This document shows, one piece after another, positions 19,677-47,413 of a DNA stretch of 48,825 nt. Source of the DNA: a virus; IMG/VR virus record IMGVR_UViG_3300030101_003277, positions 1-48,825 of that record, one strand, 5' to 3'. The position numbers and the translations under genes are program-made. Position 1 is the stretch's first letter, and the number at the start of each line of letters is the position of its first letter. Under the pieces are notes generated by a model. It did no database searches. It worked only from the letters and a program-made list of their open reading frames with translations, and was not told the DNA's origin.

Positions 19677-20900
19677 CTAAAAATAACTAACCACTTTATC
19701 TCCCCATCCATGCGATTGGCTGTAAGGCCATATCAAATATCTCAAAGGCTTAACCCCTATCACACTTCTAGATATATTCATATAAACCATATTAGACGAT
19801 TTAAGGGCGTTTATTTCGTCTTTTGTTATTGTATCGTGGTGAACTACTATCCCGTTATTATCTTCCATTACAAGCGCTGCAAATGCAGTATCTTCATATA
19901 AGAAGTCATACTTGTTTAATTTTATATGATATTCTTTTGACTCATGGTAGATAGAGTCTCCTTCCATTCCAGGGGGAGGCAGGTTTTGTTTACACCTATG
20001 TGTTATAGTCTGATCAGCAAATTTTACCCCAGCATACAACTCATACTCTTCTAATGTTCTCACCTCGCCAAGGCCATATTCTTTAAAAGTGTTTTTATTG
20101 CACGGTGAACAAACTTCTCCATTGACACCTAAAAGTTGACGAGTCCGTGCTTTTGAAGCGGCGTCTCTATCAAACCATCTACTATGATCGTCCCAATGCT
20201 TTGACCTTCCCTCTCTAGTGTATTCATGCCATACCACAGGTTTGTGGGGTGCAAATAAATCATAGCCATGAGTAAAAGCTCTTACTGAGATAGATATTTC
20301 TTCTCCATAAAAATACATAAGAGGATCATGAGGAACCTCCTTACAAAACTGTCCTAATGTAAATGCAAAATGCCCTGAGTAAAATCTTGAAGGAACCGGA
20401 GCCGTAGTTTTTCCCATTGCATAAGGATGAAATAAAGCTACACCATCATTCCAAACATTAATTTGCATACCATAAGCTGTGGTGTCTCTAGGCTTAGTGG
20501 TATTTAATTCATAAGCTGGACAATAAGAGGTCAGTAATGGCTTTTTAAAACCCTGCTTTTGTAGCTTTGTTAATGTGTTTATACATTCCGTGTCCCACCC
20601 AGCTTCAAAACGATGATGAGAGTCTAAATGAAGAGTATAATCTTCACCATTATAATGTCTTTGGATTTCACTTCTCGCCCAACAAGTTCCTTGAGATTCT
20701 TGATAAGGAATTTGTATGACGGTAAATCGTCCGTCATCAGCAAACTGATCTAAGCGGTCCCACTCATCTTCCTCTGCATATTGATGAGCAATGCATATTT
20801 TTAAATTCTCAGGTTTATGAGCCGTTTCAATTAGATCCTTTATAGTGGGAATAAGTTCGGGGTCGCGATAGCTAGCTATCTGCACAAATATAGATTTCAT
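19677..20900 (-). CDS. Glycosyltransferase, GT-A type (GlcNAc-transferase-like)
   Basis: A 407-aa enzyme with the GT-A fold of the family usually annotated as GlcNAc transferase. It starts KSIFVQIASYRDPELIPTI (sugar-nucleotide binding strand and loop, residues 2-20). It has WARSEIQRHYNGEDYTLHLD ending in the DSHH acidic metal-binding site (92-96), and then the RFEAGWDTEC strand. About residues 200-230 (YFYGEEISISVRAFTHGYDL) hold the acceptor-side EE. The last 100 residues are an extra domain of unknown role. Targets could be virion proteins, host surface sugars or wall polymers. It has its own TATCTTAG box 18 nt upstream and stands among tail genes. Confidence 0.8.
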   Translation of the reverse strand: MKSIFVQIASYRDPELIPTIKDLIETAHKPENLKICIAHQYAEEDEWDRLDQFADDGRFTVIQIPYQESQGTCWARSEIQRHYNGEDYTLHLDSHHRFEAGWDTECINTLTKLQKQGFKKPLLTSYCPAYELNTTKPRDTTAYGMQINVWNDGVALFHPYAMGKTTAPVPSRFYSGHFAFTLGQFCKEVPHDPLMYFYGEEISISVRAFTHGYDLFAPHKPVVWHEYTREGRSKHWDDHSRWFDRDAASKARTRQLLGVNGEVCSPCNKNTFKEYGLGEVRTLEEYELYAGVKFADQTITHRCKQNLPPPGMEGDSIYHESKEYHIKLNKYDFLYEDTAFAALVMEDNNGIVVHHDTITKDEINALKSSNMVYMNISRSVIGVKPLRYLIWPYSQSHGWGDKVVSYF

Positions 20901-23184: not shown

Positions 23185-26100
23185 TTAACATGTAAAGAAT
23201 GATATTACCCTTCCGTCACTACCTATCTGCACCCATCCTTCCATAAAATCTTGAGTTGCATACTTGCTTCCTGGTGGAGGAGCAACAAATCCATAATATT
23301 TATTATTCCCGTTGAAAGGTAAATTAAAATCTCTGTCTGAGAAAAATAAAGTATTATTAGCAAATAAATTTGCAGTAGTAGTAATAGAAGTAAATGCCGG
23401 TGCAGCGCAAAATACCGTGTTGTTACACGTTAAATTAGCAGGAGTATCAAACCCTCCATCTTGGTTTGTGTTAAACATCCATACAGGGTTATCCGTTAAA
23501 TCACTTGGACAATTTGTAGCATCTTTACACGAAGACGCTTGACCCACTATTTCTCCACCATTTCCATTGCCCCAATTAATTTTTTCTATTGTAGCGCATT
23601 TTCTTATAGGTATATTTGAGCCGCTTAAATTTATCTCATCATAGTAGACAACATTACCTACGCTAAAGACTCCAAGAGAAGCACTTCCCGACAAGAAAAC
23701 TCTTGTACCACTACTACCGCATTGTATTGCTGCGTAATATTTTTCTTCACATGCTGCTCCTGCCGTCACTGTTCCATTAGTACCTACTGACCTTACAGGT
23801 ATATTTGAAGCACAAACCACACTTGAATCTCCCCCTCCTACTGTTTCCTCTAATTGTACTCCATTACATGCCAACCAAGTAAATGTATTGGCTGTACCAC
23901 CGCAACTCACACCTGCTGTAACAGTACCTGTTCCAGGAGTAGTCGTAGGGACAGTAGTTGAACACACGTCTACAGCATCTCCAGCAGGAACATTTGCTAC
24001 AAAATCAGCATCTCCATCACAATTAGTAAAATCAATACGAATGGTATCTGCGTTTGCTTTAACATCGTAACTCGTACAAGTAGATGGTGAAGCTAACGTA
24101 TAGGATATACATCCTATAGGAGTAGGCGTAGGCTCCGGAGTAGGAACCGGCGTTGGTTCTACATTACACCCTACACAGCATACATCATTTAGATCTACTG
24201 TTGAATAACATAATTGTACCGCAGTTGAATCCCTGTAATCATATATTAAATATAAATTATCATTAGTAGCCCCGCTTGGCATAGTAAATGTAGCAGAAAA
24301 TTCTGGCGCATTATTTTGAAGCGGTGTGACATTAGTAGATGCCGCTAATAAAGAAATTATATCGGAAGTTATATTACCATAAACTGTTGCTGATCTTAAA
24401 AATCTAAAGTTGTTAGTGTTAGGCTCAAAATCATAGTCATCAAAATTAATTTTATTACTTATGATTGTCACCTTGGCGTCGTCATCTGGGATAACCCCCG
24501 CTCCTTGGCTTCCAGTTAAACTTAAATATTGACTTACTAAGGGATTTTCTTTGCCACTTTTAAACTCCATTAATTCACTGTGTAAAGGAGAATTAAATAA
24601 ACCATCTTGCCATCTATATTCATTATGAATAAATTTACCTTTATCGGCATTACTTCCAATACCTACTTGAATGATAGTTATATCATCGGGCGTAGGGCAA
24701 TTTACTGTAATCTCAATAGTATCTTCAGTTATACTATTAGACGAAACTTCAACAGTTAAATTTTCTGCATATACAGAGTTTTTAGCTACAGTTAAAATAC
24801 CATTTATAGACGTGGTTACGCTTGTAGTGGTTCCATTATATAAAGCTGTTATAGTATAAGTATTATTTGAAGTAGAGTCTTCTACGACTATCTCGTTCCC
24901 AGAAGATGCCGTTGAATTAGTTTCAGTTATAACATTAACCAATCCAGCACTAGGATTGGGTGTATTGGCTTCAGTAATAACATTGTTATTACCACCACTG
25001 GGAATAACATATTCAATCTCTACAGTGCCTACTTCTTGTGTTACATCCACACAATAAGATATTGTTTCGCCTACAGGTATAGCTATGTCTCTAGAACTTC
25101 CACATAAATCACAATTCCCAACAAATGGCAAAGTTATACTGTTGGCGGATAAAATATATTCGTTCATATACGGATCGAATCCACCTAACTTTTGAGCATC
25201 AAAATTATTATGAAACAAATCCCTAAACCAAGACCTCATACCGAGTTCAGAAATGACTGTTAAAGACTCTTGATTATAAGCGCCTCCTTTCAGTTGAATA
25301 ACTGCTCCTCTTTGCTCGTCAGTAAAAAATTTATCTGCACCAAACACTGCAAAACTTTCAGGATTTCTACTAATCCCATATTCTTCTATACGAGAGATTT
25401 GCTGGCCTAATACTTCTGGAACAGAAGTAAGGTTCCCTGATCCCCCTGCATCAGTAAGCAAATCTTTGCCAGCTAATACGTAAGATATTTTATCTTCTTG
25501 CAAAGTAAGTATGTCTGTTTTTCTAGCATGAAGTTTTTGAATAGAACCAAAGGAGTCTTCAAGCGGTTTAAAATTGGCTAATCCTAAATTAAACTCATTA
25601 AGTTTATTTACATTACTTTCATCGTTAAACACCCCGCTATAGGTTAAATCAGCGAACCTATGGGCCTCTTTATAATCTTGACCTGATGTTGTTGTCACTC
25701 TATTTCCTAAAGCTAAAGCTTCGCCTTTTACAGAGTCTCTTACAGTATAACTTTCTACACCATTACCAAATGAATAACAATTAAAAAATCCAGTGTCTGA
25801 TACCGCCGAAGTTTTTGTTTGAACATTTTGCCAACCGTAGCTACCTTGATGTTCTCCATTAGCATTGACTTCAAAATTAACATCATTTTCATACCATATA
25901 TCAGGAGATGCGTCTGAAGGAATTGTTTCAAAAACAACTACCCCTCCTTGATCAGCTCTTTGAACTGTAATTTTCATGTATACACTAGACGCGCGCCCGC
26001 CTACATTCCCACCAAAGAGATTAGCAGCAGCTTTACAGCTTGATGTACCAGTCGCTAACAACCATTTAGACCCATCATTAGCGTTAAAAAATTGATACGT

Positions 26101-28923
26101 ATTGGTTCCTAAAGCAACAGGAATAAATGGATTTTGATCAGTGCTGTTTATAGTTTCAGGTGGCTCACTGACATTTAATCCAGTACTAGTTCCATCTATT
26201 GGAGTTCCTGCAATATAAGTGTTGGTAGTTTGACTGCCGTCTCCGTTGTCTACTCTACTCATTTGTGTAATTAAATCTCCTATATTATCACCTTCAAACC
26301 ATGCTTGAAAATTTGCATAATCTGTTGAAGCAATTAAATCTGGAGACTCATAAGTGTTATACCTATATTCACATCTTCCTGCAAATCCACCTCTAGCCCC
26401 TTCTCTTCGTTGCTCTATTGTAATGTTAATTTGACTATTAACTGGAATAGTATAATCTATATATTTTGCGGTAGGACTAGCATTTGGATCTAAGTTTGGA
26501 ACATTTACCAACGCACGCCCCACAGGGAAACCTTTAGTTTTTACCCTGATTGGAAAAGTGGAGGTTACAGGTGTATTTGCTACTGCACTACCACCTACAC
26601 TAGTTGTTTCAGTTATATTAAATCCACTAGGAACCATCTCCATGTAAGGCCCTGCTGGGAGATTAATGTAATATCCTACAGCAAATGGGTCTTCTGGTGG
26701 TTCCTCAGGGTAAGTTGTAGTGTCAAAAGGGTTTCGTATTTTTAAAAAATCAGAAGACTGTACTTGTTTGTCCGTTACCACAGCTTCAACACATTGCTCC
26801 ACTGCTCCTCCGCTATCTCTTTTGACTATCAGTCTTTGACCCGCTTCAACTTTGGCTGCATTTTCTCCTTCTAATAAAAAGAAATAACTATTGCTTTGAG
26901 GGTCCTTAAAAAATATTTCACTATAAATTGTTTCATAAGTTGACTGATCTGGTTTAAGAACAAACTTATAATACTTAGCCCAGTAGGGTGCTCTTTGCGC
27001 CCAAGGGATACTTACTTGTATTTGGTTTTGAGATCTAGAGTTAGAGCACGGGATTTGTATAGTGTTATTAGGACTAACTAAAGCTGTAGAAGAGCGCAAA
27101 AACTCATCCATATAAACCACTCCTATTTCATACCCTCTATTACTATGTAAACTTTTTGGATTAGATACAGTAGTAAATTGAGCGGTTAGGGAAATATATT
27201 TGTAATACTCATACCATCCTCCGCTTGGACTTGCAGGGTCCGTTACATATCGCATTGCCGGTAATTGCAGCTTTATACTTGTAGTAGCTGGTGTATTGTC
27301 TACAATTTTTACAGGCTCTCCTGCAGCAGTAATACCACTAGAAAATTTAGTTACTGTTCCTGTAGAAGTGGTTTGAGTAGTAGGAATAAAACAATTTACA
27401 AAATCTGTTAAAGTATATCCCGAACATGAAGTAGGGTTTACCGCATCATAAACGGGTTTTATATTAGAGACCGTACCGATAGCTTCTTGAAAATCTGCAG
27501 CTGCAACCAAGTCATATATAGACGTATAGTCTTGAGGTAAGACATAAGCAAACTGAACATCTACATTTTCTGTAGTAGTGGTAGGCTGACTGGCTGTTGG
27601 GTCATATTTAGAATGTTCAAACGTAAAATATATAACAAAAGAAGTCCCTGCTTTGAGCTGTGTAAAAGTATCCACACTAGAAAAATCTACTTTAGCTATA
27701 GAATTAGGAATTGTCTGGACGCTTCCAAAAGTATAAGATCCAGCTTCTAGGCTTGTCGTTAAAGAAAAGTTTTGTATTTGGTTCTCTACTAAATTAGTAA
27801 TAAATTCTAATTTAACGGGGTTGTTAAATATATCTTTTAAATCATAACCCTCAATATAATTACCATAAACTAACCGATTACCCATTAAAGTTTGACCCAA
27901 TGCTTTTATAGGGACATTGTCGTAAAGACGAAGCAATTCAGTGGATGGAAGTACCGTAAATATTTTACTGTTGTCAAACGTAAAGCTATACTGGGTATTA
28001 TCAGCAAAACCTTGAAGGTCTTTAGATAACTTATCCACTATTTTAACAGTACCATCGGTAATTTCTTTATATAAGATTTCGATGTTTTTAACTAACGCGC
28101 TTCCAGAATTAAATTGAACATCCACTCCGGTTACTGTATTAACCATCCCTTCATTTAAATTCGTAGCATAACTGTAGTTATAATTGTTTGGATCAAACGC
28201 AGGCTCTGACCATTGGGATGTAGCTGAATATTCACCGTTAGCGTATTGATAACGATATGCAAAACAAATAAATCTAGTTTCTAAAAAATCATCTAAATTA
28301 TTTATTTGTTGTTTTAAAATTAAAACTGGCGCAGTTACTGGGGGTTTTTTAATAACCATAAACTCCTCAGCAGTAGTTTGATCTATGTCAAATAAAGGGT
28401 TAGGATAATTTTGAGTAACATTTATATATCTCGGAGGATTTATATTGTCTGTAAAAAATAATAAATCCTCTACTAAATCTACTCCTGTAATCAAATGTTT
28501 TGGATTAAAATTCAGGGTAGTATTCCCTCCATATCCATCGTCAATACTAATTATGTGGTAGGTTAAATTTTGTGTCGTGGGATTAAAAGAAACAATCATA
28601 TCTATTTTTCCTGTATTTCCTACAGAAAAAGCAGGGTCGTGTACAAACCAATAAATTCTATTGTTTTGTCCATCTTCATAAGCCCCGATACACCTTGCTT
28701 GATTACTTAAGAGTACAGCTCCAGTAACACTATTTGTTTGCTCATACTGCAAACTTGTCATTTTAGTATTGCCTTTTGAGTTTTCTACTGACCCTATCTC
28801 GGAAGCTTCAGTAGAACCAAGCCTAACATTTAATGCGTCTATATACTCTCCATTCGGTACAAGCCTTTCGTCGAGAGACTTGTTCATCCTTCCCGCGATA
28901 AAATTTCTTTGTAGGTTTGCCAT
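23185..28923 (-). CDS. Tail muzzle/stabilisation protein with tail-tip extensions (1912 aa)
   Basis: The N-terminal part (ANLQRNFIAGRMNKSLDERL, then VPNGEYIDALNVRLGSTEAS) is the signature I associate with the stabilisation or muzzle protein of crAss-like phages, which forms the distal tail tube at the portal vertex. Much of the first 1300 residues is beta-rich (DNINPPRYINVTQNYP, DEFLRSS...). From about residue 1590 a PTPVPTPEPTPTP linker leads to about 300 residues of Cys-rich modules (YYAAIQCGSSGTRVF, NIPIRKCATIEKI) shared with the next gene. The total is larger than the muzzle proteins I recall, the excess being this C-terminal extension, probably for host attachment. Confidence 0.7.
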   Translation of the reverse strand: MANLQRNFIAGRMNKSLDERLVPNGEYIDALNVRLGSTEASEIGSVENSKGNTKMTSLQYEQTNSVTGAVLLSNQARCIGAYEDGQNNRIYWFVHDPAFSVGNTGKIDMIVSFNPTTQNLTYHIISIDDGYGGNTTLNFNPKHLITGVDLVEDLLFFTDNINPPRYINVTQNYPNPLFDIDQTTAEEFMVIKKPPVTAPVLILKQQINNLDDFLETRFICFAYRYQYANGEYSATSQWSEPAFDPNNYNYSYATNLNEGMVNTVTGVDVQFNSGSALVKNIEILYKEITDGTVKIVDKLSKDLQGFADNTQYSFTFDNSKIFTVLPSTELLRLYDNVPIKALGQTLMGNRLVYGNYIEGYDLKDIFNNPVKLEFITNLVENQIQNFSLTTSLEAGSYTFGSVQTIPNSIAKVDFSSVDTFTQLKAGTSFVIYFTFEHSKYDPTASQPTTTTENVDVQFAYVLPQDYTSIYDLVAAADFQEAIGTVSNIKPVYDAVNPTSCSGYTLTDFVNCFIPTTQTTSTGTVTKFSSGITAAGEPVKIVDNTPATTSIKLQLPAMRYVTDPASPSGGWYEYYKYISLTAQFTTVSNPKSLHSNRGYEIGVVYMDEFLRSSTALVSPNNTIQIPCSNSRSQNQIQVSIPWAQRAPYWAKYYKFVLKPDQSTYETIYSEIFFKDPQSNSYFFLLEGENAAKVEAGQRLIVKRDSGGAVEQCVEAVVTDKQVQSSDFLKIRNPFDTTTYPEEPPEDPFAVGYYINLPAGPYMEMVPSGFNITETTSVGGSAVANTPVTSTFPIRVKTKGFPVGRALVNVPNLDPNASPTAKYIDYTIPVNSQINITIEQRREGARGGFAGRCEYRYNTYESPDLIASTDYANFQAWFEGDNIGDLITQMSRVDNGDGSQTTNTYIAGTPIDGTSTGLNVSEPPETINSTDQNPFIPVALGTNTYQFFNANDGSKWLLATGTSSCKAAANLFGGNVGGRASSVYMKITVQRADQGGVVVFETIPSDASPDIWYENDVNFEVNANGEHQGSYGWQNVQTKTSAVSDTGFFNCYSFGNGVESYTVRDSVKGEALALGNRVTTTSGQDYKEAHRFADLTYSGVFNDESNVNKLNEFNLGLANFKPLEDSFGSIQKLHARKTDILTLQEDKISYVLAGKDLLTDAGGSGNLTSVPEVLGQQISRIEEYGISRNPESFAVFGADKFFTDEQRGAVIQLKGGAYNQESLTVISELGMRSWFRDLFHNNFDAQKLGGFDPYMNEYILSANSITLPFVGNCDLCGSSRDIAIPVGETISYCVDVTQEVGTVEIEYVIPSGGNNNVITEANTPNPSAGLVNVITETNSTASSGNEIVVEDSTSNNTYTITALYNGTTTSVTTSINGILTVAKNSVYAENLTVEVSSNSITEDTIEITVNCPTPDDITIIQVGIGSNADKGKFIHNEYRWQDGLFNSPLHSELMEFKSGKENPLVSQYLSLTGSQGAGVIPDDDAKVTIISNKINFDDYDFEPNTNNFRFLRSATVYGNITSDIISLLAASTNVTPLQNNAPEFSATFTMPSGATNDNLYLIYDYRDSTAVQLCYSTVDLNDVCCVGCNVEPTPVPTPEPTPTPIGCISYTLASPSTCTSYDVKANADTIRIDFTNCDGDADFVANVPAGDAVDVCSTTVPTTTPGTGTVTAGVSCGGTANTFTWLACNGVQLEETVGGGDSSVVCASNIPVRSVGTNGTVTAGAACEEKYYAAIQCGSSGTRVFLSGSASLGVFSVGNVVYYDEINLSGSNIPIRKCATIEKINWGNGNGGEIVGQASSCKDATNCPSDLTDNPVWMFNTNQDGGFDTPANLTCNNTVFCAAPAFTSITTTANLFANNTLFFSDRDFNLPFNGNNKYYGFVAPPPGSKYATQDFMEGWVQIGSDGRVISFFTC

Positions 28924-39478: not shown

Positions 39479-39734
39479 ATCCTTGTTTTGTGTCTGTCTT
39501 TTGATTATTAACAGACATGTTTATATTTTCTTGTTCTGCATCTATTTTATTTAATATTTCAAATGCATCAAAAATTGCTAACTTTTTAGTAGCCGCTGCA
39601 TTCTTTAATCTGTCTGCAGCTAATTCATCCTCTGGATCAGGCTTAATAATATTTTCTTTGGCCACTTTGATAAGTTGCTCTACGGCTTTTCTGCCAGCCT
39701 CTATAATTTGTACTTTTAACAATTCTGAGCTCAT
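39456..39734 (-). CDS. Possible small terminase subunit (92 aa)
   Basis: A 92-aa helical protein immediately before TerL. Its N-terminal helix (SELLKVQIIEAGRKAVEQLI) is followed by ENIIKPDPEDELAADRLKNA, ATKKLAIFDAFEILNKID and a polar end. It is short for a small terminase and has no visible helix-turn-helix DNA-binding segment. The position before TerL, with a four-base overlap upstream and a 23-nt overlap downstream, makes the small-subunit role possible but unproven. I recall similar ADRLKNAAATKK-type small proteins before TerL in marine phages. Confidence 0.4.
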   Translation of the reverse strand: MSSELLKVQIIEAGRKAVEQLIKVAKENIIKPDPEDELAADRLKNAAATKKLAIFDAFEILNKIDAEQENINMSVNNQKTDTKQGFAERRSK

Positions 39735-40294
39735 AACATTAATGTTATTTGATGGTCGTACATCCTATAGAGTTTCTCTTGGTCTACTTCAAACTCATAT
39801 TCACTTTCTGGTTTAAAGCTCACGTGTTGTCCTTTTTGAACTCCTTGAGAAATTAAATACTTATTAGGATATTTCATTTCTCCCATTAAAGGCTCTTCTT
39901 GTCCTCTTTTAAATATAAAAGATTTTTTTGTTTTTAAAGGCTTTATAAAACAATAGCGATCATGACTATACCATTTGCCGTTTTGTTTATACATGTAGAA
40001 CTGATCATTGTCTATAAAAAACAAATCATCTTTAAAATAACTTTTACCACTTTGTTGCCTACCTCTCATATCATTATAGTATTTGAAAACATTATGGTGA
40101 ACTAAAAGTATATCAGATATTCTTATATCCCCTTTATAGTTAAGCGGGAGCTCTTTTACTATAGCATATCTGTTGGAATACTTATAATCCTCTTCCGATG
40201 AACTAGTAATAAAATCTAGTCCAGCAATGGATTTAGTATTATTATATCTTTTTCCAAACAGAGGTTTAACAATAAAATAAAATGGCGATCTCAT
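39731..40294 (-). CDS. GroES-like co-chaperonin candidate (187 aa)
   Basis: A 187-aa beta-rich protein. N-terminal FYFIVKPLFGKRYNNTKSIA gives a V-K-P-L strand followed by the AIVKELPLNY and DILLVHHNVFK strands. The second half contains FKPESEYEFEVDQEKLYRM and HQITLML, which resembles the terminal strand and the DGEKLxxM region of GroES. The length would allow two such folds, or a GroES with an insertion. If correct, it would help the host chaperonin fold the capsid protein (known for T4 gp31 and related proteins). The gene stands just before the packaging genes. The resemblance is by eye only. Confidence 0.4.
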   Translation of the reverse strand: MRSPFYFIVKPLFGKRYNNTKSIAGLDFITSSSEEDYKYSNRYAIVKELPLNYKGDIRISDILLVHHNVFKYYNDMRGRQQSGKSYFKDDLFFIDNDQFYMYKQNGKWYSHDRYCFIKPLKTKKSFIFKRGQEEPLMGEMKYPNKYLISQGVQKGQHVSFKPESEYEFEVDQEKLYRMYDHQITLML

Positions 40295-40694: not shown

Positions 40695-41169
40695 TACTCA
40701 TCATGTTAGTTTTATGCTTGCTACCTGCTGAAGATCCAAAGTAGTATCCTATAACTTGAGTAAAAGCTGCTACAACGGCGCCGAATCCCATATCAAATAA
40801 CCTTTGTGACTCTTCGGGAATTTGCCATAAGCCAATAGCTCCTGCTACCACACCTACAAAGCAAATTGTAATACCCCATCCGACCGTTTTAAAAAGAATA
40901 TCATTAGACCCTGCCGCTAATGCTGCCATCTCTCTTTGTCTAGCGCTTGCTCTGTCTTGAACCTCAGCCTCGTATGCTTCGAGCACCATTTCTTGTGCTC
41001 TTATTTTATCCTCTGCTGGTGCATCTGAATTTTTGATTGAAGATACTACTTGCTCCACCGACATGTCCCCTTGGATAATACTTCCTAAAGTTGGGTTTAT
41101 TAAACCTACAGAGGCTTTTAAAAGTTTGCCAACTACAGTCTGTCCGAATTTTTTCTTAGGTTTGCTCAT
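40672..41169 (-). CDS. Three-transmembrane holin-like protein (165 aa)
   Basis: A 165-aa protein resembling the 3-TM holin group of phages and gene transfer agents. A polar basic N-terminus (SKPKKKFGQTVVGKLLKA) is followed by a helical linker with Glu/Asp/Lys/Arg (EDKIRAQEMVLEAYEAEVQD). Membrane segments are at about 97-118 (VGWGITICFVGVVAGAIGLW) and 129-147 (GAVVAAFTQVIGYYFG), with a weaker third near 20-35. Its neighbour is the M15 peptidase, with the genes overlapping by 4 nt. It would make the membrane holes that release the peptidase. The C-terminus is polar (SKHKTNMMSS). Confidence 0.65.
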   Translation of the reverse strand: MSKPKKKFGQTVVGKLLKASVGLINPTLGSIIQGDMSVEQVVSSIKNSDAPAEDKIRAQEMVLEAYEAEVQDRASARQREMAALAAGSNDILFKTVGWGITICFVGVVAGAIGLWQIPEESQRLFDMGFGAVVAAFTQVIGYYFGSSAGSKHKTNMMSSGENNQL

Positions 41170-41627
41170 ATTACTTGATAATTAGTTTTCCCATCCTCTC
41201 TTACAGCTTTTAAAGCTCGTCCTCTATTTTCACTCTCTGATATAAAGCTTACATGAACCCAGTCTGGATTAGTTTCATCCCCAAACTCCCAAATAATTTG
41301 ATCAAAATTTAAATTTTCTCTAATATACTGAAACATCTCAGCATTTGTTTTATGTCCAAACGTATCATCTAGGTCAATAGCTCGACCCTGGCAATGCTGT
41401 GATCGGGAACTTCCTCCGATAGCTCGGTTTAAATCTTCACATCTGAAAAAACTATTTATTTTTATAGGTCCACCCACCCATTTTCGTAATGGCTCAAAAA
41501 GATTGTCAGCCAAGATACCCATGTTAGAAAGCTCATATGAGCCAGGGGTATTGTCGATGTTTAACCTAGTAGCGGTATTTGACTTAACACCTTCTTTGTA
41601 CGATACGTGCTCACTTATTCTTTCCAT
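41166..41627 (-). CDS. M15-family peptidase endolysin
   Basis: A 153-aa zinc peptidase of the M15 type (D-Ala-D-Ala carboxypeptidase or L-Ala-D-Glu endolysin, peptidase M15_3-like). The zinc set is complete: SQHCQGRAIDLD with H78 and D85, and DWVHVSF with H125. KINSFFRCEDLNRAI marks the core before the first ligand. It has no signal peptide, so it depends on a holin to reach the wall. Its ATG lies in the overlap with the 51-aa membrane gene and its stop overlaps the next ATG (ATGA), forming a compact lysis cassette. Confidence 0.85.
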   Translation of the reverse strand: MERISEHVSYKEGVKSNTATRLNIDNTPGSYELSNMGILADNLFEPLRKWVGGPIKINSFFRCEDLNRAIGGSSRSQHCQGRAIDLDDTFGHKTNAEMFQYIRENLNFDQIIWEFGDETNPDWVHVSFISESENRGRALKAVREDGKTNYQVI

Positions 41628-41766
41628 GCATTATATACCATTTGTGCAAGGTATAGCCTATAGCAACAATAGTGGCTAGAATTTTAAGTGCCACATCAAT
41701 GTCAGTCATTGAAGTAGCTAAAGCTCCTACTGTAAGAGCATAGATTTTTATATCAGTCACATCCAT
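41611..41766 (-). CDS. Small two-segment membrane protein, candidate holin (51 aa)
   Basis: An ATG at 41766 opens 51 codons reading MDVTDIKIYALTVGALATSM, then TDIDVALKILATIVAIGYTL, and a polar end HKWYIMHGKNK. Two apolar stretches separated by acidic residues and a basic end is the layout of small class II holins. The start of the endolysin overlaps its last codons, as in classic holin-endolysin pairs. Start choice: the ATG is the only one in frame giving both segments. Confidence 0.55.
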   Translation of the reverse strand: MDVTDIKIYALTVGALATSMTDIDVALKILATIVAIGYTLHKWYIMHGKNK

Positions 41767-41836
41767 TTTCTTTAGATTCAACATAAATGTAGTTTACTGT
41801 TATCTCTCCAGCTGTAGTGTCTTGCACGTAATTCAT
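41753..41836 (-). CDS. Very small peptide in the lysis cassette (27 aa)
   Basis: An ATG at 41836 opens 27 codons (MNYVQDTTAGEITVNYIYVE...), linking the 99-aa gene (4-nt overlap) to the 51-aa membrane gene (14-nt overlap). The peptide is acidic, without a membrane segment. The four-base overlap is the typical phage arrangement and supports it, but the length allows chance. Confidence 0.3.
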   Translation of the reverse strand: MNYVQDTTAGEITVNYIYVESKENGCD

Positions 41837-42132
41837 CTTTTTTTAGATTTTTTACCAGATCGGTTTTTTCCTTGTATAGCACTAGGCACATCTCCGATTT
41901 GGTTACCCACCTCTTTAATAGCCTTAGTAACGTCTTTAAGCTCTTCTCCGACACGATCAACACGCTTAGATACATCATCCTTCATCTTAGCAAATTTCTC
42001 CTCTAAGATGTCGGGAATCATATTGTTGTTATCGTCTTTGGTAAGACCTTTCTTTGTAAGCCATATTGCGGCTATGTTTATTACGATCAGTAAAACTACT
42101 AATCCGATTAATATTAAAATAGTTGTGTTCAT
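41833..42132 (-). CDS. N-terminal membrane-anchored coiled-coil protein (99 aa)
   Basis: A 99-aa protein with an N-terminal membrane segment (NTTILILIGLVVLLIVINIA, residues 2-21), a D-x-N-N-N loop (KDDNNNMIPDILEEK, about 32-46) of the calcium-binding type, a helical coiled coil (FAKMKDDVSKRVDRVGEELK) and a very basic end (NRSGKKSKKR). Such a layout is seen in i-spanin or lysis accessory proteins and in phage membrane proteins of unknown function. It opens the lysis cassette and its stop overlaps the next ATG. An outer-membrane partner spanin was not found. Confidence 0.5.
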   Translation of the reverse strand: MNTTILILIGLVVLLIVINIAAIWLTKKGLTKDDNNNMIPDILEEKFAKMKDDVSKRVDRVGEELKDVTKAIKEVGNQIGDVPSAIQGKNRSGKKSKKR

Positions 42133-42150
42133 AGTTTTTATTTTAAATTT

Positions 42151-43467
42151 TTAAGCCCAAGCCATATAAATATAACTTGTTCCCGAAGCATCCCACGTCC
42201 CTCCATTTGGTGTAAATCCATCTGAATCAAAAGACCATCCTGTTGCAGTTTGCTCATTAGAATTTGTATTTATATATAATTGCTTGTTAGCCCCTCTTTC
42301 TGCGTCAATCACTAACCAATCAGTATTACTAGAGCCTGAGTATGATTTAACAATTAAAAGTCGTGGCTGAAATCCTAACCCAGTTACAGGCGTTCCCGTT
42401 CCACTCCCTGCAAATGAGCCGAATGATGATACCCCCGTCTTATTTGCCCAAGCATAGCACATATAATCATAACTTGATCCGGTCCAATTATTTTCGATAA
42501 TTGTAGAACTTACTGTCGAAAAACTACTTGCCCTTGTAAACTGATTATCTTTACCTGAACCTGCACCATCCTCATTCCTTGTAAAACTCATATATTTTCC
42601 TGTGCCTATAGTTGAGTGCCACACCTGCCAATCTTCTGTTTGTGTGGGTTTTAAAATAATAAAATCAGGTGTTACGCCTAATGAATGAGGCGTTTGAACG
42701 GCTCCCCCTCCTGTTACTTTACTAATACTAAAATTTTTATCACTGTTAATAGTTTGTTTAGTAGGGTAATTTGTGGAGGTGGCAAAATTACTTGTGCTTG
42801 CCACTCCATCTAACATTTTAGAACCTGAAGTTGGTGTTACTCCTCCCGAGTTAACTGCTGTAGGAAATCCACCACCTTTAAAATAATAATTCAAATACTT
42901 TACTCCAGTATCATTCATGCCGTAATCATTATTGCCATTACCCCAATTGTAACTTTGATTTCCAGCACTTGTATTAGTGGTGTCTTTTAAAGTAGCATAA
43001 GCAATCGTGCCTGAGCCTCCAGATGTTTCAGCATTAGTATTATTAAAGTTCATTACCACACCGCCTATTATATTAAATCCTGTACCATTATCAGTGTCGT
43101 TTCGTAAAGTATCACACACATTCCAAGACCTCAATGGCCCATCGAGTGCTTTTGTAATTGACAAATCAAAAGAAAAATCAGTAGAAATTGTTTGCGAAGT
43201 GGAACTAGGATAAGAAACCGTGGAGTCGCCCGTATATTCTCTTACATTAAAAAAATCAAATGGAATAGTTTCGGTATCTATCTGTCTCCAGACTAATCCA
43301 TCCCAAAATTCTACATATTTCTCATCCGTATTATATCTCCATTCTCCTGTGCTAGGAGCTGCGGGCCTACCCCCTGTTCCGCTAGTAGGTCCCGTTGGTA
43401 ACTGAAGCGCGGTATTCAAGTCGCTAAAGTCAAATAATTCCGGTGTTGTTATTTTTGTTAATGCCAT
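42151..43467 (-). CDS. Tail fibre protein with marine-phage repeat domains (438 aa)
   Basis: A 438-aa fibre. Residues 1-70 (ALTKITTPELFDF, PSTGEWRYNTDEKYVEFWDG, LVWRQI) are the N-terminal attachment module seen in many phage fibres. Two repeats of a beta domain follow at the end: HSLGVTPDFIILKPTQTEDW...AWANKT, and GLGFQPRLLIVKSYSGSSNT...FTPNGGTWDASGTSYIYMAWA. I recall this W...SFDSDGFT.. repeat as common in marine phage fibres. It should bind host receptors at its C-terminus. It follows two glycine-rich fibre genes. Confidence 0.7.
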   Translation of the reverse strand: MALTKITTPELFDFSDLNTALQLPTGPTSGTGGRPAAPSTGEWRYNTDEKYVEFWDGLVWRQIDTETIPFDFFNVREYTGDSTVSYPSSTSQTISTDFSFDLSITKALDGPLRSWNVCDTLRNDTDNGTGFNIIGGVVMNFNNTNAETSGGSGTIAYATLKDTTNTSAGNQSYNWGNGNNDYGMNDTGVKYLNYYFKGGGFPTAVNSGGVTPTSGSKMLDGVASTSNFATSTNYPTKQTINSDKNFSISKVTGGGAVQTPHSLGVTPDFIILKPTQTEDWQVWHSTIGTGKYMSFTRNEDGAGSGKDNQFTRASSFSTVSSTIIENNWTGSSYDYMCYAWANKTGVSSFGSFAGSGTGTPVTGLGFQPRLLIVKSYSGSSNTDWLVIDAERGANKQLYINTNSNEQTATGWSFDSDGFTPNGGTWDASGTSYIYMAWA

Positions 43468-43469
43468 AG

Positions 43470-44546
43470 TTAAAATGTTACTGTTCCTGTTCCTTGTTTA
43501 GCTATAAATATTTTTTTAGTTGCATCATCGTTTGCTGTAAATGGGCCTGAAGATGCAGTAAATCCAGAGACAGTTAAAGTTTTTGATCCATCATAACGAA
43601 GTATTACAACGCCTCTTCCGCCGCTTCCTCCAACACCTCCAGCTCCAACTTCACCGCCTCCGCCTCCGCCGCCAGTGTTTGCCGTGCCGCTTGTTACAGC
43701 AATACTTCCTGAATTTTGTGCTCCGTTACCGCCTCCACCTAATCCTCCTGCATGCGGGCCGCCTGAATTACAGCCGCCTCCGCCGCCACCAGCAAAATAT
43801 ACATTTCCACCATCTACCTCTCCAGTTGAGTAAGTAGCAGCATCACTCGTGTCTATAATAGTAGTTGTTGCTCCTATACCTCCTGGGCCCGGAGAACTAC
43901 CGGCTCCTCCGGCTCCTCCGCCTCCGCCGCCTGGGAAAGTGCCACCGTCTGTTCCATTACCTCCTGCATTTCCTTGACTAGGAGTGGTGCTTGGTGTATT
44001 TCCTGCTGCACCTGCTGCCGTGGAAGTAAGAGCACCTCCACCACCACCAGATCCTCCAGCGCTAGCTGAGTTTCCGCTACGGTCTCCTCCTCTTCCTCCT
44101 CCTGTTACTGTTACGTCGGTAATATCTGATCCACTAATAGAAGAGTCGGATCCAGCTAATCCAGCAGAAGGAGAGGTTGACCCTGCCCCTCCTTCACCTA
44201 TAGTTAAAGTATAAGTAATCCCTGGGTTAAAAACCAAAGTTCCTGTTAAAAGACCACCAGCGCCACCGCCTCCTGCTACGTTGCCACCAGATCCTCCTCC
44301 TCCTGCTACAGCTAGATATGTAACGTCGACGGGAGGGTTACTGTTTACATAGTTTTTCCAGTCTGTTCCATTGTAATGTTGCATGCAACTATTAGAGCCT
44401 TCAGAGGTTTGACTTGTATCATTGCGCATCATCCCCTCAGCTGGTGATCCCGAGAAAGCCGTATTATCCGAAGGCATTTTTAATCCATTCTCGGAACCTG
44501 TTTGGTTTAAGTCCGTTGCTGCTGCTCCTACTTTAGTTAGTGCCAT
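43470..44546 (-). CDS. Glycine-rich tail fibre adhesin (358 aa)
   Basis: A 358-aa protein with an N-terminal attachment module (ALTKVGAAATDLNQTG, then a SCMQHYNGTDWKNYVN segment) and a long Gly-rich C-terminal domain. It contains runs such as AVAGGGGSGGNVAGGGGAG, SASAGGSGGGGGALTS and FAGGGGGGCNSGGPHAGGLG. Such runs are the mark of polyglycine II helix adhesins, known from phage S16 gp38 and related tail tips (the assignment of this protein is by analogy). The last residues (VVILRYDGSKTLTVSGF) resemble the beta end. A second Gly-rich fibre is encoded 774 nt upstream in the same operon. Confidence 0.65.
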   Translation of the reverse strand: MALTKVGAAATDLNQTGSENGLKMPSDNTAFSGSPAEGMMRNDTSQTSEGSNSCMQHYNGTDWKNYVNSNPPVDVTYLAVAGGGGSGGNVAGGGGAGGLLTGTLVFNPGITYTLTIGEGGAGSTSPSAGLAGSDSSISGSDITDVTVTGGGRGGDRSGNSASAGGSGGGGGALTSTAAGAAGNTPSTTPSQGNAGGNGTDGGTFPGGGGGGAGGAGSSPGPGGIGATTTIIDTSDAATYSTGEVDGGNVYFAGGGGGGCNSGGPHAGGLGGGGNGAQNSGSIAVTSGTANTGGGGGGGEVGAGGVGGSGGRGVVILRYDGSKTLTVSGFTASSGPFTANDDATKKIFIAKQGTGTVTF

Positions 44547-44550
44547 ATTA

Positions 44551-45318
44551 TTAACAATTTATCCAATTTAATTCACTTTCTATCCACATATAACACCCTT
44601 CTTCTGGTTTTTCCACGGGCGGAACCCATTGGAGTCCATCGTACGTCCAACTAGGAAAAGGTTGAGGAGAGATGGGAGAGGTATAAGGATAATCTACCCA
44701 CTCTGTTGTATCTTCTTTCCAATACCAACCTTTCCCCTCAGGCATAGGAGTTGGTGGTTCCCAATAACAAGTGTCCTCATTTAGCACCCAACTTGCGTAA
44801 GGTTTTTCCGTGTAAAATGCATCTCGTACAGGGTCGTAGATATGTCCTACACCTGCATAATTTTTTCTAAAAGGCGTGTCGCCTAACTTGTGCGTGCCTC
44901 CTTGTGTATTGTATGATGTTCTTTTACAAAAAGTAGGATTTCCTCCATAAACTCCTTCCCAATATACTGTGTTATCTACATCAGTAACTCCTCCATCAGC
45001 AGATATAAATTCATCAGCCCCAGTCCACGTGTGAGTTACTCTACATAAGGAATTAGCTATTGTAGAATTTAATGTTGTAATTTCAGTAGTTAAAGCCTCT
45101 GTTCCTTCAGCTTCCTTAGCATTAAGATTATCTAAAGCTGTTATTTGTTCGGCCTCACTTCCACTAAAAGAATCTTCATAAGCTGTTTTAAGCAACGCAT
45201 ATTCTTCGCTTGCTCTGTTATTAGCCTCTATAACACTTTTTTCTATCTCAGCTTCCCTAAGTCTAATCTTTTCACTTACTGTGAACTCATCATTTGATAT
45301 TTTTGCGTAATGTGCCAT
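44551..45318 (-). CDS. Virion protein with PxPSW-type repeats (255 aa)
   Basis: A 255-aa protein with a coiled-coil N-terminus (EFTVSEKIRLREAEIEKSV, residues about 11-30), a central beta part (CKRTSYNTQGGTHKLGDTPF, RKNYAGVGHIYDPVRDAFYT) and two Trp-Pro-rich terminal repeats (PYASWVLNEDTCYWEPPTPM and PFPSWTYDGLQWVPPVEKPE). I recall this combination from a common marine phage structural protein, but no experimental role. It stands between the two Gly-rich fibres, perhaps as a spacer or chaperone-like fibre part. Confidence 0.6.
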   Translation of the reverse strand: MAHYAKISNDEFTVSEKIRLREAEIEKSVIEANNRASEEYALLKTAYEDSFSGSEAEQITALDNLNAKEAEGTEALTTEITTLNSTIANSLCRVTHTWTGADEFISADGGVTDVDNTVYWEGVYGGNPTFCKRTSYNTQGGTHKLGDTPFRKNYAGVGHIYDPVRDAFYTEKPYASWVLNEDTCYWEPPTPMPEGKGWYWKEDTTEWVDYPYTSPISPQPFPSWTYDGLQWVPPVEKPEEGCYMWIESELNWINC

Positions 45319-45319
45319 A

Positions 45320-46399
45320 TTAACTAAAAGTTATTGTGGAGCCTCCTGCTGCCGTTGTTATTGAATAAAAATATTCTCCTGCGGGCATATTAGAAGTGTC
45401 TCCATTTACACTTTGTCCCGCTGTTGTAGTCGTGCCATTTACAACTACACCGGCAGTAAATGTTGCTGCAGCTTGTGTACATCTTATTATTATTATTCCT
45501 GAACCACCGGTTCCGCCTGAATTAGAACTACCAAAATTACCACTTCCACCGCCTCCTGAACCTGAGTTAGCCGTTCCACTTCCACCAGCTCCATTACCGC
45601 TTCCGCTACCTCCTCCAGCTTGACCAGCGCCCGGGGTGAGATTGTAAGTTCCTCCGCCGCCACCGCCAGCACGAGGACCTGTAGATACGCCTGTTATAGA
45701 GCTAGATAATCCACTTCCTCCGTCAGTTCCATTTCCTCCAGTAGTGTTTACACCAGCGCTTCCAGCTCCGCCTCCTCCTGCGCCTCCCACATTCGCAGCA
45801 GTTGAATCACCTCCAGCATTACCTTGACCCGCAGGAGAGGCTGCTCCTCCTGTATTTGCGCCTACTCCTGTTGAACCGCCGCCGCCAGAACCTCCATCTT
45901 TTCCTTTATTTATTCCTGTGCCATCACCTGCACCGCCGCCGCCGCCGCCAGTTGCAGTGATTGATGCAAAAACAGAGTTGCCTCCATTTGTTCCTTGACC
46001 ATTAATGCCCCCAGCTCCACCTGTGCCAACCTCAATATCATAAGCGCCGGAACTTATTAATAAAGCTGTACCACCAAAATTAGTTAAGTATCCTCCAGCT
46101 CCTCCACCGCCTGAGCCGTTTCCAGCAGCCACTATTGCAGATCCGCCACCGCCGCCTCCTGCGATTACTAAATAAGAAACAGAAAATCCCGCCCCTGTTT
46201 CTTTTAGATTTCTCCACTCTGATGTGCCTGTTTGGTCGGTATATATTTCAGTACGGTTTGTATCAGTGTTTTCTCGAAGGGTACCCACTCCTGTGGAAGG
46301 GGTAGCCTCTCGCTGAGCAGTAGTGCCCTTTACCCAGGTAAGCCCTCCAGCATTACCACTCATGTCAATTACGTTCGTAGTTACTTTGGTGAGTGCCAT
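45320..46399 (-). CDS. Second glycine-rich tail fibre adhesin (359 aa)
   Basis: A 359-aa protein with the fibre N-terminus ALTKVTTNVIDMSGNAGGLT, VKGTTAQREATPSTGVGTL and RENTDTNRTEIYTD, then the beta start VSYLVIAGGGGGGSAIVA, and long Gly-rich runs (ITATGGGGGGAGDGTGINKG, GGAGGGGAGSAGVNTTGG). A short beta end (AAATFTAGVVVNGTTTTAGQ) follows. Same layout as the 358-aa fibre, but the Gly-rich sequence is different, so the two are diverged relatives rather than a recent duplicate. Adhesin role is inferred from the polyglycine type. Confidence 0.65.
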   Translation of the reverse strand: MALTKVTTNVIDMSGNAGGLTWVKGTTAQREATPSTGVGTLRENTDTNRTEIYTDQTGTSEWRNLKETGAGFSVSYLVIAGGGGGGSAIVAAGNGSGGGGAGGYLTNFGGTALLISSGAYDIEVGTGGAGGINGQGTNGGNSVFASITATGGGGGGAGDGTGINKGKDGGSGGGGSTGVGANTGGAASPAGQGNAGGDSTAANVGGAGGGGAGSAGVNTTGGNGTDGGSGLSSSITGVSTGPRAGGGGGGTYNLTPGAGQAGGGSGSGNGAGGSGTANSGSGGGGSGNFGSSNSGGTGGSGIIIIRCTQAAATFTAGVVVNGTTTTAGQSVNGDTSNMPAGEYFYSITTAAGGSTITFS

Positions 46400-46408
46400 C
46401 AGCTAGTG

Positions 46409-47413
46409 TTATGTTATAGTTGTCGCTTCTACTGCAGAACCATTAGGAAATTTTTCTCCGCCGTCTAAAACTAAATTTGATCCTGTAACAGTATAAGCGC
46501 TTTTACTTTGATACACTCCATCTATATATAATTGAACGTTGTCATCACTTCCTGGTGAAACGCCTAAGGCTAATGTGTCGTTTGATCCTGTTCCTGCAAC
46601 GGTTGCAACAGTAAAGGTTCCACCTCCACCTCCTGATGGTGTTGACCACGCTCCGGTATAATCTAAATATTGGCCCGCTGCCCCGCCTGTTATACCTATG
46701 GTTAGATCTCCTGTGGCTGTAACAGGGTTGGTGCCGCCTGAAGAATTAAATGCAGCAATTGCAGTGACATCTAATCCTACCGAAGTTACTGTTCCGGAAG
46801 TAAGCGTTCCTAAACTTAGGTCTCCTAGTATTACTTGCGAGGCAGTACCTGCGCCTGCAATATTAATATCTCCACTTGTTGTTATAGGCGAATTTGTTAT
46901 AGTAAGAGCCGAACCCGTTTCAGTTAATCCAATACTCGTTACAGTACCGGATCCTCCTCCGCCTGTCCCGTTTATGGTAATTGTTCCACTTGATGAGGTT
47001 ACCCCCACGGTACCTGATCCAATTATGTTTATTGTATCTGTTCCTACATCTCCTCCACCTACACCATCTAATAGGACAGGTGTGTTTTGAGCAGGGTCGG
47101 CATTATCTGTTGCTGACAATGTGTAAACTGTACTAGCGAAATCAACAGTAGTGCTTCCATCGCCATTAAGCAATGTAGCTCCTGAGCCTGTAAGGCTAAC
47201 TGTTGAAGGGCTAATAGCTGGTTGATTAGGTTTTGTTCCCTGAAGATTTATTGTTGGTGAAGCTCCGGCATTTCCGGTAGACACCACATAAGTAGTATCA
47301 AGATTTGCTGGAGGGATTCTTACGTTTAGCTCTCCTGAGGTTAAATAACCTACTACTTCGGTTACGTCGCTAACCAAAGATTTTGCGGTGAACTCTGAAA
47401 ATTTAACTGCCAT
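46409..47413 (-). CDS. Tail fibre protein with Gly/Thr-rich repeats (334 aa)
   Basis: A 334-aa fibre protein starting AVKFSEFTAKSLVSDVTEVV, then a GELNVRIPPANLDTTYVVST attachment region, and a beta-rich Ser/Thr/Gly middle with two related phrases (GTVTSIGLTETGSALTITNS and GTVTSVGLDVTAIAAFNSSG). The end is VYQSKSAYTVTGSNLVLDGG, a common fibre-tip strand pattern. It belongs to the four-gene fibre block but lacks the ALTKV start of the next three, so it may occupy another position on the virion. Confidence 0.6.
   Translation of the reverse strand: MAVKFSEFTAKSLVSDVTEVVGYLTSGELNVRIPPANLDTTYVVSTGNAGASPTINLQGTKPNQPAISPSTVSLTGSGATLLNGDGSTTVDFASTVYTLSATDNADPAQNTPVLLDGVGGGDVGTDTINIIGSGTVGVTSSSGTITINGTGGGGSGTVTSIGLTETGSALTITNSPITTSGDINIAGAGTASQVILGDLSLGTLTSGTVTSVGLDVTAIAAFNSSGGTNPVTATGDLTIGITGGAAGQYLDYTGAWSTPSGGGGGTFTVATVAGTGSNDTLALGVSPGSDDNVQLYIDGVYQSKSAYTVTGSNLVLDGGEKFPNGSAVEATTIT

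Follow-up and report, generated by a model that had tools for sequence, protein, structure and literature searches.

A marine phage locus resembling a host-recognition cassette: a glycine-rich tail fiber, its probable assembly partner, and an exchangeable fiber slot

We analyzed a 48,825-nt stretch of viral DNA (IMG/VR record IMGVR_UViG_3300030101_003277, positions 1 to 48,825), hereafter called the window, in which two glycine-rich fiber genes, G2 and G1, flank a gene for a Trp/Pro-rich protein, W. The region is, we think, rather likely to be best read as a fiber (G2) with a dedicated assembly partner (W) and an exchangeable receptor-binding slot; together these would form the cassette for host recognition in a marine phage whose relatives include podoviruses of Flavobacterium and Cellulophaga. 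In it, G2 would be paired with W. G2 would be a tail fiber, presumably a trimer located in the virion, whose C-terminal part is predicted to be a TNF-like sandwich extended by a polyglycine-II–type loop bundle; the variable tips of its loops would contact the host and bind the receptor. W, most likely a chaperone or a transient cap dedicated to G2, would guide the glycine-rich chains until fiber formation is complete. The gene after W would act as a cartridge slot with a related docking start and an exchangeable receptor-binding end; in the window, this end would be a second glycine-rich bundle (G1), and relatives carry ends that are lectin-like, of the DUF7483 type, or unassigned. F would be a further fiber sharing the same kind of start. 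Family membership, the predicted G2 fold, the linkage of W to fiber genes, and slot variation were established by computation. The features are as follows.

46409–47413, minus strand: 334-aa protein before G2, possible further tail protein (ORF, Pfam)
45320–46399, minus strand: G2, 359-aa glycine-rich fiber of the type found ahead of W in relatives (ORF, PF21722, AlphaFold2 model)
46196–46399, minus strand: N-terminal module of G2 with MALTK start, residues 1 to 68 (start comparison with F and G1)
45479–46183, minus strand: Gly_rich_2 domain of G2, predicted TNF-like sandwich and glycine-rich bundle (PF21722 placement, model)
44551–45318, minus strand: W, 255-aa Trp/Pro-rich putative partner, PHROG 7759 (ORF, PHROG match)
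45043–45303, minus strand: helix-like stretch of W, residues 6 to 92 (alignment; helix by eye)
44689–45042, minus strand: part of W matching PHROG 7759, residues 93 to 210 (PHROG match; conserved in W alignment)
43470–44546, minus strand: G1, 358-aa glycine-rich fiber in the exchangeable slot behind W (ORF, PF21722, slot survey)
43593–44327, minus strand: Gly_rich_2 domain of G1 (PF21722 placement)
42151–43467, minus strand: F, 438-aa fiber with MALTK start and DUF7483 end at residues 230 to 438 (ORF, PHROG, Pfam)

The arrangement given in the preliminary description, two Gly-rich proteins on either side of a Trp/Pro-rich one, was confirmed. Gly makes up 28.5% of G1 (runs of up to 7) and 30.9% of G2 (runs of up to 6) versus 6.7% of the 18 other coding sequences of the window pooled (11,067 aa), and the richest 100-aa stretch holds 43 Gly in G1 and 46 in G2 versus 21 in these 18. 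Between residues 71 and 310, there are 23 Gly triplets in G1 (shuffle mean of 11.9, maximum of 28) and 21 in G2 (mean of 14.8, maximum of 27; 2000 shuffles each); their clustering exceeds the expectation from composition only moderately. Of the 255 residues of W, 11 are Trp and 16 are Pro, with nine of the Trp within residues 177 to 252. F matched PHROG 24898, annotated “tail fiber protein.” The C terminus of the 334-aa protein resembles DUF4183 (24.9 bits, slightly below the cut-off of 25.1), and a PHROG search with this protein gave no match.

Both G1 (65.0 bits) and G2 (52.0 bits) scored above the curated cut-off of 24.3 for PF21722 (Gly_rich_2), and both matched PHROG 2295. As had been proposed, their Gly-rich parts differ in sequence (40% identity in the family alignment), though the two are related: The local alignment of G1 with G2 had a z of 11.5, a score reached in 0 of 200 shuffles, and the kinship of the Gly-rich parts goes further than shared composition. 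In the family alignment, Gly motifs are conserved while the intervening segments vary in sequence and length, and the start of G2 aligns with that of G1. Comparison of starts gave z values of 7.0 for G2 and F and 5.1 for G1 and F; because an unrelated control pair, G1 and W, reached 4.2, only the G2-F kinship is clear. Comparing the glycine-rich genes with named phages by BLAST returned nothing useful, with either no match or, among the matches listed, only start-region ones at E ≥ 0.3, probably because low-complexity filtering strips the glycine-rich domain. Profile searches took the place of BLAST for these genes. Single-sequence phmmer searches of the PDB with G1 and G2 yielded chance matches only (best values of 0.034 and 0.54, respectively).

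A PDB search with a profile of 39 relatives placed the tail fiber of cyanophage Pam3 best (7yfw, 4.5e-4; 7ypx, 5e-4). The alignment-based AlphaFold2 model of the G2 monomer had a pLDDT of 86.7 and a pTM of 0.81. In structure comparison, model residues 69 to 308 matched the Bxb1 tail tip (9d93_Qb; Z of 14.5, 174 residues, 2.9 Å), and residues 69 to 313 matched the Pam3 fiber 7ypx (Z of 13.2, 172 residues, 2.8 Å); the Pam3-type fold of a TNF-like domain with a glycine-rich bundle was matched with Z of 13.2 and 12.6 over 172 residues. LTK/ALK followed at Z of 4.7 to 5.0, residues 22 to 67 weakly matched a piece of the tailspike CBA120 TSP3 (Z of 4.8, 42 residues), and matches with Z below 4.5 (cupins, ppnP, and others) were disregarded as reflecting a common sandwich arrangement. 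Foldseek gave E values of 1.7e-4 for Bxb1 and 4.5e-3 for Pam3, with low TM-scores of 0.28 to 0.32 by query length for the best PDB matches and of 0.31 for the Pam3-type fold. Passages of PMC13243192 describe PPII helical bundles resembling those of S16 gp38 in 7YFW and 9D93 and mention, for 9D93, subdomains of gp29 as well as wing brush domains (gp33). The polyglycine-II fold proposed at the outset is thus supported for the predicted G2 model, since this model matches Pam3 and Bxb1 entries reported to contain PPII bundles. In model residues 1 to 68, of which 1 to 10 are of low confidence, there are short strands and one 3-residue helix, and an N-terminal helical trimerization/docking domain of the Pam3 type is absent from this part. 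For G1, the single-sequence model (pLDDT of 36.5) was useless; as G1 was modeled without an alignment only, its fold rests on homology.

The likeness to S16 drawn in the preliminary description holds in part, for the same kind of lattice is predicted. A gp38 sequence family exists in Pfam, and a Pfam scan of G1 and G2 at E ≤ 0.1 found Gly_rich_2 only; membership of either protein in the gp38 family was therefore dropped, and the likeness is limited to the lattice. The S16 structure 6F45 was not among the matches listed for the G2 model by Foldseek and structure comparison.

On the minus strand, W lies 1 nt behind G2 and 4 nt ahead of G1, and is thus directly downstream of a fiber gene, as would be expected of a fiber chaperone. 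In a scan of loci selected by W only, covering the best 80 of 568 confirmed loci, 70 of 81 W genes were located directly behind a glycine-rich ORF (called by Gly content or by a profile from the glycine-rich family alignment) compared to 38 of 412 other ORFs. Two of 83 W genes with less than 200 nt of upstream sequence were left out of these counts, and L220 and L240, where W overlaps the glycine-rich frame, apparently through an early start codon, were scored as nonadjacent. In loci selected by terminase, all 11 W genes (9 loci) followed a glycine-rich ORF versus 1 of the 89 other ORFs in W-bearing loci, with 3 W genes dropped for having less than 200 nt upstream; in this set, as in the named-record and slot sets, glycine-rich frames were called at ≥38 Gly per 120 residues rather than by Pfam. 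Among named records (20 W-bearing ones fetched of 45 listed), 14 of 21 W genes lie directly behind a glycine-rich gene and 7 do not; in P-RSM4, the gene immediately preceding W is annotated as ferrochelatase. Gly_rich_2 was found somewhere in 20 of 20 W-bearing named records versus 0 of 3 that had been retrieved on other grounds. Conversely, 49 of 119 glycine-rich frames in W-selected loci have no W behind them, and G1 of the window is itself followed by F.

Given how regularly W comes right after glycine-rich fibers, it probably helps to assemble them. An assembly role had been suggested earlier; the position of W fits it, and the role itself we infer. The label “chaperone” rests on position, because a PDB search for a solved relative of W found none (best E of 1.1) and the Pfam names of the family are scattered: Over 31 members at E ≤ 1, the best among the matches listed was Med9 (4.1e-4, in 3 of 31), and Tfa and DUF4376 were not among the matches listed (25 of 31 Pfam names). 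A tip or connector role would agree with this position as well. PF13640 was present in 9 of 21 records but not in that of the window, and a general tie of W to 2OG-Fe(II) oxygenases was rejected. W of the window matched PHROG 7759 at E of 3.7e-32, as did all 31 aligned relatives at E ≤ 0.01; the annotation of this family is “function unknown.” The start of W had been described beforehand as a coiled coil; in the alignment, residues ~6 to 92, which look helical by eye, fall inside an insertion present in 20 long members and missing in 11 short ones (115 to 188 aa), and the Trp/Pro tail is repetitive and variable.

Among 30 contigs whose W is of the long form, the preceding gene is glycine-rich in 29, while the following gene starts with MxxTK in 29 and is glycine-rich in 13. 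Ten of the 16 remaining slot proteins were scanned, and Laminin_G_3 was found in 5, DUF7483 in 2, and no domain in 3. This contig list was compiled manually, some entries having come from searches with G2 or W, and it contains near-duplicates (the window and 20465_000120 are 99.98% identical). Contig L157, which is 91.2% identical to the window over 44683–46400 and 86.5% over 40949–43474, carries a 298-aa Laminin_G_3 (lectin-like) protein in place of G1. Its slot start is still 70.6% alike to the window DNA (44344–44561), so the exchange is limited to the gene end. Compared with the window, L157 retains G2 and the W start but has another slot-gene end and another W tail; L158 and L183 show the reverse, sharing the slot gene and W tail with the window but not G2 and the W start.

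That the W tail is kept or changed jointly with the slot gene in two close relatives, and that this Trp/Pro tail is repetitive and variable, would suit a W that is a permanent part of the fiber, its tip or a connector. According to passages of PMC7289586, Mu Tfa and S16 gp38 do stay bound. We regard such a role as possible but rather unlikely, since Pam3 gp25, whose gene likewise lies behind that of a fiber with a matching fold, went undetected in virions, as stated in a passage of PMC9608196. A mirror-tree comparison of 23 hand-picked contigs also speaks against it: The tail of W correlates no better with the slot end (r of 0.24) than with G2 (0.27), whereas the N-part and core of W gave 0.37 to 0.59 with G2 and 0.13 to 0.25 with the slot; these correlations are modest and include shared ancestry.

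Lectin-like ends swapped at one slot are the usual pattern of receptor-binding genes. Their presence in the slot of relatives, together with the variation between Gly motifs, makes it improbable that the glycine-rich proteins act in the tail as structural or brush components and play no part in host choice, although the best structure match is a Bxb1 tail-tip chain from an entry with wing brush domains (passages of PMC13243192). If W were a two-sided adaptor, its N-part fitting G2 and its Trp/Pro tail fitting the slot fiber, one small protein would let the phage retain one fiber and swap the other. The patterns in L157 and in L158 and L183 agree with this idea, which we nonetheless hold to be quite improbable; recombination within the conserved middle of W would produce the same picture, and the wider 23-contig comparison does not favor it.

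A pair of glycine-rich fibers such as this one was previously thought to be without a described podovirus counterpart. This uniqueness is refuted. Three Gly_rich_2 genes occur in CRP-143, an isolated Roseobacter phage of the Autographiviridae, where a W-like gene lies between two of them (gly-W-gly-gly), and MW202674 (Podoviridae sp., Manatee Spring) has the order gly-W-gly. The CRP-143 pair is known from the genome record, not the paper, since the text of PMC11092137 is without “tail fib,” “glycine,” or “receptor.” At least two separate Gly_rich_2 frames are present in 7 of 23 named records searched whole, including CRP-143, MW202674, and HTVC023P (in Greip, two matches that extend across the origin were taken as a single gene), and in 8 of a further 21 virus records retrieved with G1, where the frames are not necessarily neighbors and some records are near-duplicates. 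Among terminase relatives, 8 of 50 searched had Gly_rich_2 (80 found; many are fragments). The comparison with related marine phages proposed earlier thus revealed frequent Gly_rich_2 genes, often several per genome. With these counts, and with the second fiber of relatives often ending differently, it is highly unlikely that two adjacent adhesins, differing as their domains are, constitute a host range–widening device special to this podovirus; that two such fibers widen host range is possible.

Polyglycine-bundle adhesins have been solved for few phages. Glycine-rich fibers of this kind are common in marine phages: Gly_rich_2 genes are frequent in the examined marine phage records and closely tied to PHROG 7759. 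The tie between W and the fibers offers a direct and cheap route to test the role of PHROG 7759, and a single slot with glycine-rich, lectin-like, and DUF7483 ends provides a natural series for receptor change in marine phages. The spread of the domain among phages is called an interesting problem in a passage of PMC13243795.

Among known systems, the Bxb1 tail tip (9D93 chain Q, known here as a tail-tip chain only) is the best structure match of G2 and differs in its mycobacterial host. The adhesin gp38 of Salmonella phage S16 (6F45) would share the polyglycine-II lattice with variable tips by way of the literature comparison with Pam3 and Bxb1 (passages of PMC9608196 and PMC13243192). It has a β-helix and a Trp-bearing attachment domain and is a monomer capping the gp37 trimer, whereas G1 and G2 show only Gly_rich_2. 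In CRP-143, gp39 to gp42 (Gly_rich_2, W-like, Gly_rich_2, Gly_rich_2) repeat the order of the window plus one gene, with a short, 124-aa form of W and in another phage family. Alteromonas phage V22 is a marine case of a fiber, gp26, with a dedicated chaperone, gp27, in the neighboring gene (passages of PMC7289586); this chaperone has DUF4376, and the word “glycine” is absent from the searched main text of that paper. Pam3 gp24 begins with a helical bundle (a passage of PMC9608196), whereas G2 is predicted to begin with short strands and loops, and gp25 is a Tfa-like chaperone, whereas no Tfa was among the Pfam matches listed for W. Pam3 gp24 and gp25 (7YFW, 7YPX) nevertheless appear, judging from the model, to resemble G2 and W in combining a TNF-like and glycine-rich domain with a small adjoining partner gene, and W behind G2 takes the gene position of V22 gp27 behind gp26 (PMC7289586) and of Pam3 gp25 behind gp24 (PMC9608196).

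The record is 49,561 bases long, of which the window covers 48,825. The terminase shares 74.2% identity with that of MW202828 (Podoviridae sp., Manatee Spring) and 45.5% with those of Flavobacterium elemo phages. Because the 89 named records matched by terminase are mainly Flavobacterium (68) and Cellulophaga (15) phages, the window probably derives from a podovirus of marine Bacteroidota. Four genes form a tight minus-strand series ahead of the endolysin and terminase:

45320-46399, minus strand: G2, glycine-rich candidate fibre (359 aa; Pfam Gly_rich_2, PHROG 2295)
44551-45318, minus strand: W, Trp/Pro-rich protein (255 aa; PHROG 7759)
43470-44546, minus strand: G1, glycine-rich candidate fibre (358 aa; Pfam Gly_rich_2, PHROG 2295)
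42151-43467, minus strand: F, fibre (438 aa; DUF7483 and a tail-fibre PHROG)

A recount agreed with the coordinates and composition given in the preliminary description. Not far from the fibre genes, a 187-aa protein (39731-40294) matches a PHROG named co-chaperonin GroES (1.9e-17); annotated GroEL/GroES genes are present in the relatives MW202828 and elemo. Very large proteins are encoded at 9310-15639 (2109 aa) and 23185-28923 (1912 aa); the former had no match in a PHROG search, nor did a 1396-aa piece of it in a Pfam search.

The G2 model, built with 39 aligned relatives, reached a mean pLDDT of 86.7 and a pTM of 0.81; the G1 model, built without an alignment, was not usable (pLDDT 36.5). 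Among the VIA-align matches listed for residues 69-313 of the G2 model, the Bxb1 tail tip scored Z 14.5 and the Pam3 fibre Z 13.2 and 12.6, far more than the rest, the next being the LTK and ALK glycine-rich domains (Z 4.7-5.0). Foldseek returned the same top two, Bxb1 (E 1.7e-4) and Pam3 (E 4.5e-3), with low TM-scores of 0.28-0.32 by query length, and the best PDB match in a sequence-profile search was likewise the Pam3 fibre (E 4.5e-4). PMC13243192 reports PPII helical bundles, likened to S16 gp38, in the Pam3 entry 7YFW and in two proteins, gp33 and gp29, of the Bxb1 entry 9D93, whose chain Q matches the G2 model. PMC9608196 describes the Pam3 domain as TNF-like with twelve glycine-rich motifs and dihedral angles close to beta-sheet, remarks on its likeness to ALK, and proposes the variable tips as receptor binders. 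Since the predicted G2 monomer matches proteins whose entries reportedly hold PPII bundles, the polyglycine reading proposed earlier gains support for G2; for G1, it is supported through homology (Gly_rich_2, alignment with G2). The G2 model had 132 BFVD matches at E <= 0.001, and the best 50 of these include many glycine-rich domain proteins from uncultured phages, as well as HTVC025P and S-TIM4, so that G2-type domains, as modeled, are a large known family. Over their first 72 residues, G2 and F show a clear likeness (z 7.0; none of 300 shuffles as high). The start likeness of G1 to F (z 5.1) and to G2 (z 3.4) is weak when taken alone, because the unrelated control pair G1-W reached z 4.2.

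PHROG 7759, a family annotated as of unknown function, was matched by all 31 aligned W members. A core of ~120 aa is common to phages of Pelagibacter, Synechococcus, Methylophilales, and Roseobacter hosts; the W proteins of the window group (222-365 aa) have added helix-like insertions and extra Trp/Pro repeats. In terminase-selected loci, all 11 W genes (9 loci) lie directly behind a glycine-rich frame, compared to 1 of 89 other frames of the W-bearing loci. In W-selected loci (best 80 of 568), the corresponding values were 70/81 and 38/412; conversely, W comes next after 70 of 119 glycine-rich frames. The order holds for 14 of 21 W genes in named records, the seven exceptions being DSL-LC04, two ct2KA10 assemblies, and four cyanophages, and Gly_rich_2 occurs somewhere in 20/20 W-bearing records. 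Given how closely W tracks one fibre kind, it is most simply read as an assembly partner of the glycine-rich fibre, a role that PMC9608196 and PMC7289586 describe for Pam3 gp25 and V22 gp27, respectively, with their own fibres. PDB and Pfam profile searches found no clear relation of W to known families, and W may instead be a tip or connector of the fibre. As to the assembly role suggested for W in the preliminary description, its position argues for such a partner, while chaperone action, like binding and virion presence, is what we infer. In seven relatives (L039, L047, L163, L165, L176, L178, and L180), a ~1000-aa protein that includes a glycine-rich stretch is followed by an additional, short W (121-125 aa); possibly every fibre of this kind comes with a W of its own.

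The gene position right behind W, the slot, holds G1 in the window. It was surveyed in 30 hand-listed contigs with a long W, including the window and several near-duplicates. The gene preceding W is glycine-rich in 29/30; the gene following it has an MxxTK start in 29/30 and is glycine-rich in 13/30. Ten of 16 non–glycine-rich slot proteins were scanned, yielding Laminin_G_3 (lectin-like) in five, DUF7483 in two, and no match in three. Exchange can be seen directly in two comparisons. The close relative L157 resembles the window over 44683-46400 (91.2%) and 40949-43474 (86.5%) and carries, in place of G1, a 298-aa lectin-like protein whose gene start is still 70.6% alike in DNA (44344-44561). 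L158/L183 are 90.7% alike over 43270-44928; their G2 has 58% protein identity to that of the window, with a better-kept start (46143-46400, 83.7%). Of F, they retain roughly 66 N-terminal residues, in a protein that measures 973 aa; in L158 (9246-12167), repeated stretches are visible by eye, and this long F is perhaps a second exchangeable slot. The W tail travels with the slot gene in both L157 and L158/L183; over 23 contigs, this tail is no more closely correlated with the slot end than with G2 (r 0.24 and 0.27), and the W start and core correlate with G2 (r 0.37-0.59) above the slot (0.13-0.25). Exchange at the slot is the usual behavior of receptor-binding genes, and this resemblance is the main support for a putative host-recognition role.

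In other phages, 2OG-Fe(II) oxygenase genes are annotated near W: L149 (S-SM1), L211 (MW202483), L214 (P-RSM4), L215 (S-SSM5), L216 (S-RSM4), L217 (HTVC023P), L218 (S-MS29), and L219 (S-CAM8). PF13640 occurs in 9/21 records searched (8 over the cut-off); a profile search did not find it in the window's own record. These oxygenases might modify fibre residues. The late gene region of the window encodes a glycosyltransferase (19677-20900; PF11397, E 1.8e-73; PHROG 24687) that may decorate the virion or host surface; PF11397 presumably includes enzymes acting on hydroxyproline.

According to the preliminary description, no described podovirus is known to pair two such adhesins. At least two separate Gly_rich_2 frames are present in 9 of the 22 records found through G1 (8/21 once a near-duplicate of the window is excluded); in another five, one frame contains two domains, and in a further record a single frame contains three. 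The same holds for 7/23 named records searched whole: Melnitz-3, CRP-143, two ct2KA10 assemblies, zth2-2, MW202674, and HTVC023P. The pair is therefore not new, although the text of the paper on CRP-143 (PMC11092137) passes over it. The feature is real and well observed. Two glycine-rich adhesins side by side are nothing unusual; a modest novelty lies in the pairing of fibre and partner, with an exchangeable slot, and in the unstudied partner family. In CRP-143 (Autographiviridae; isolated on a host of the Roseobacter group), gp39 is Gly_rich_2, gp40 is W-like, and gp41 and gp42 are again Gly_rich_2, while MW202674 has the same glycine-rich–W–glycine-rich order as the window.
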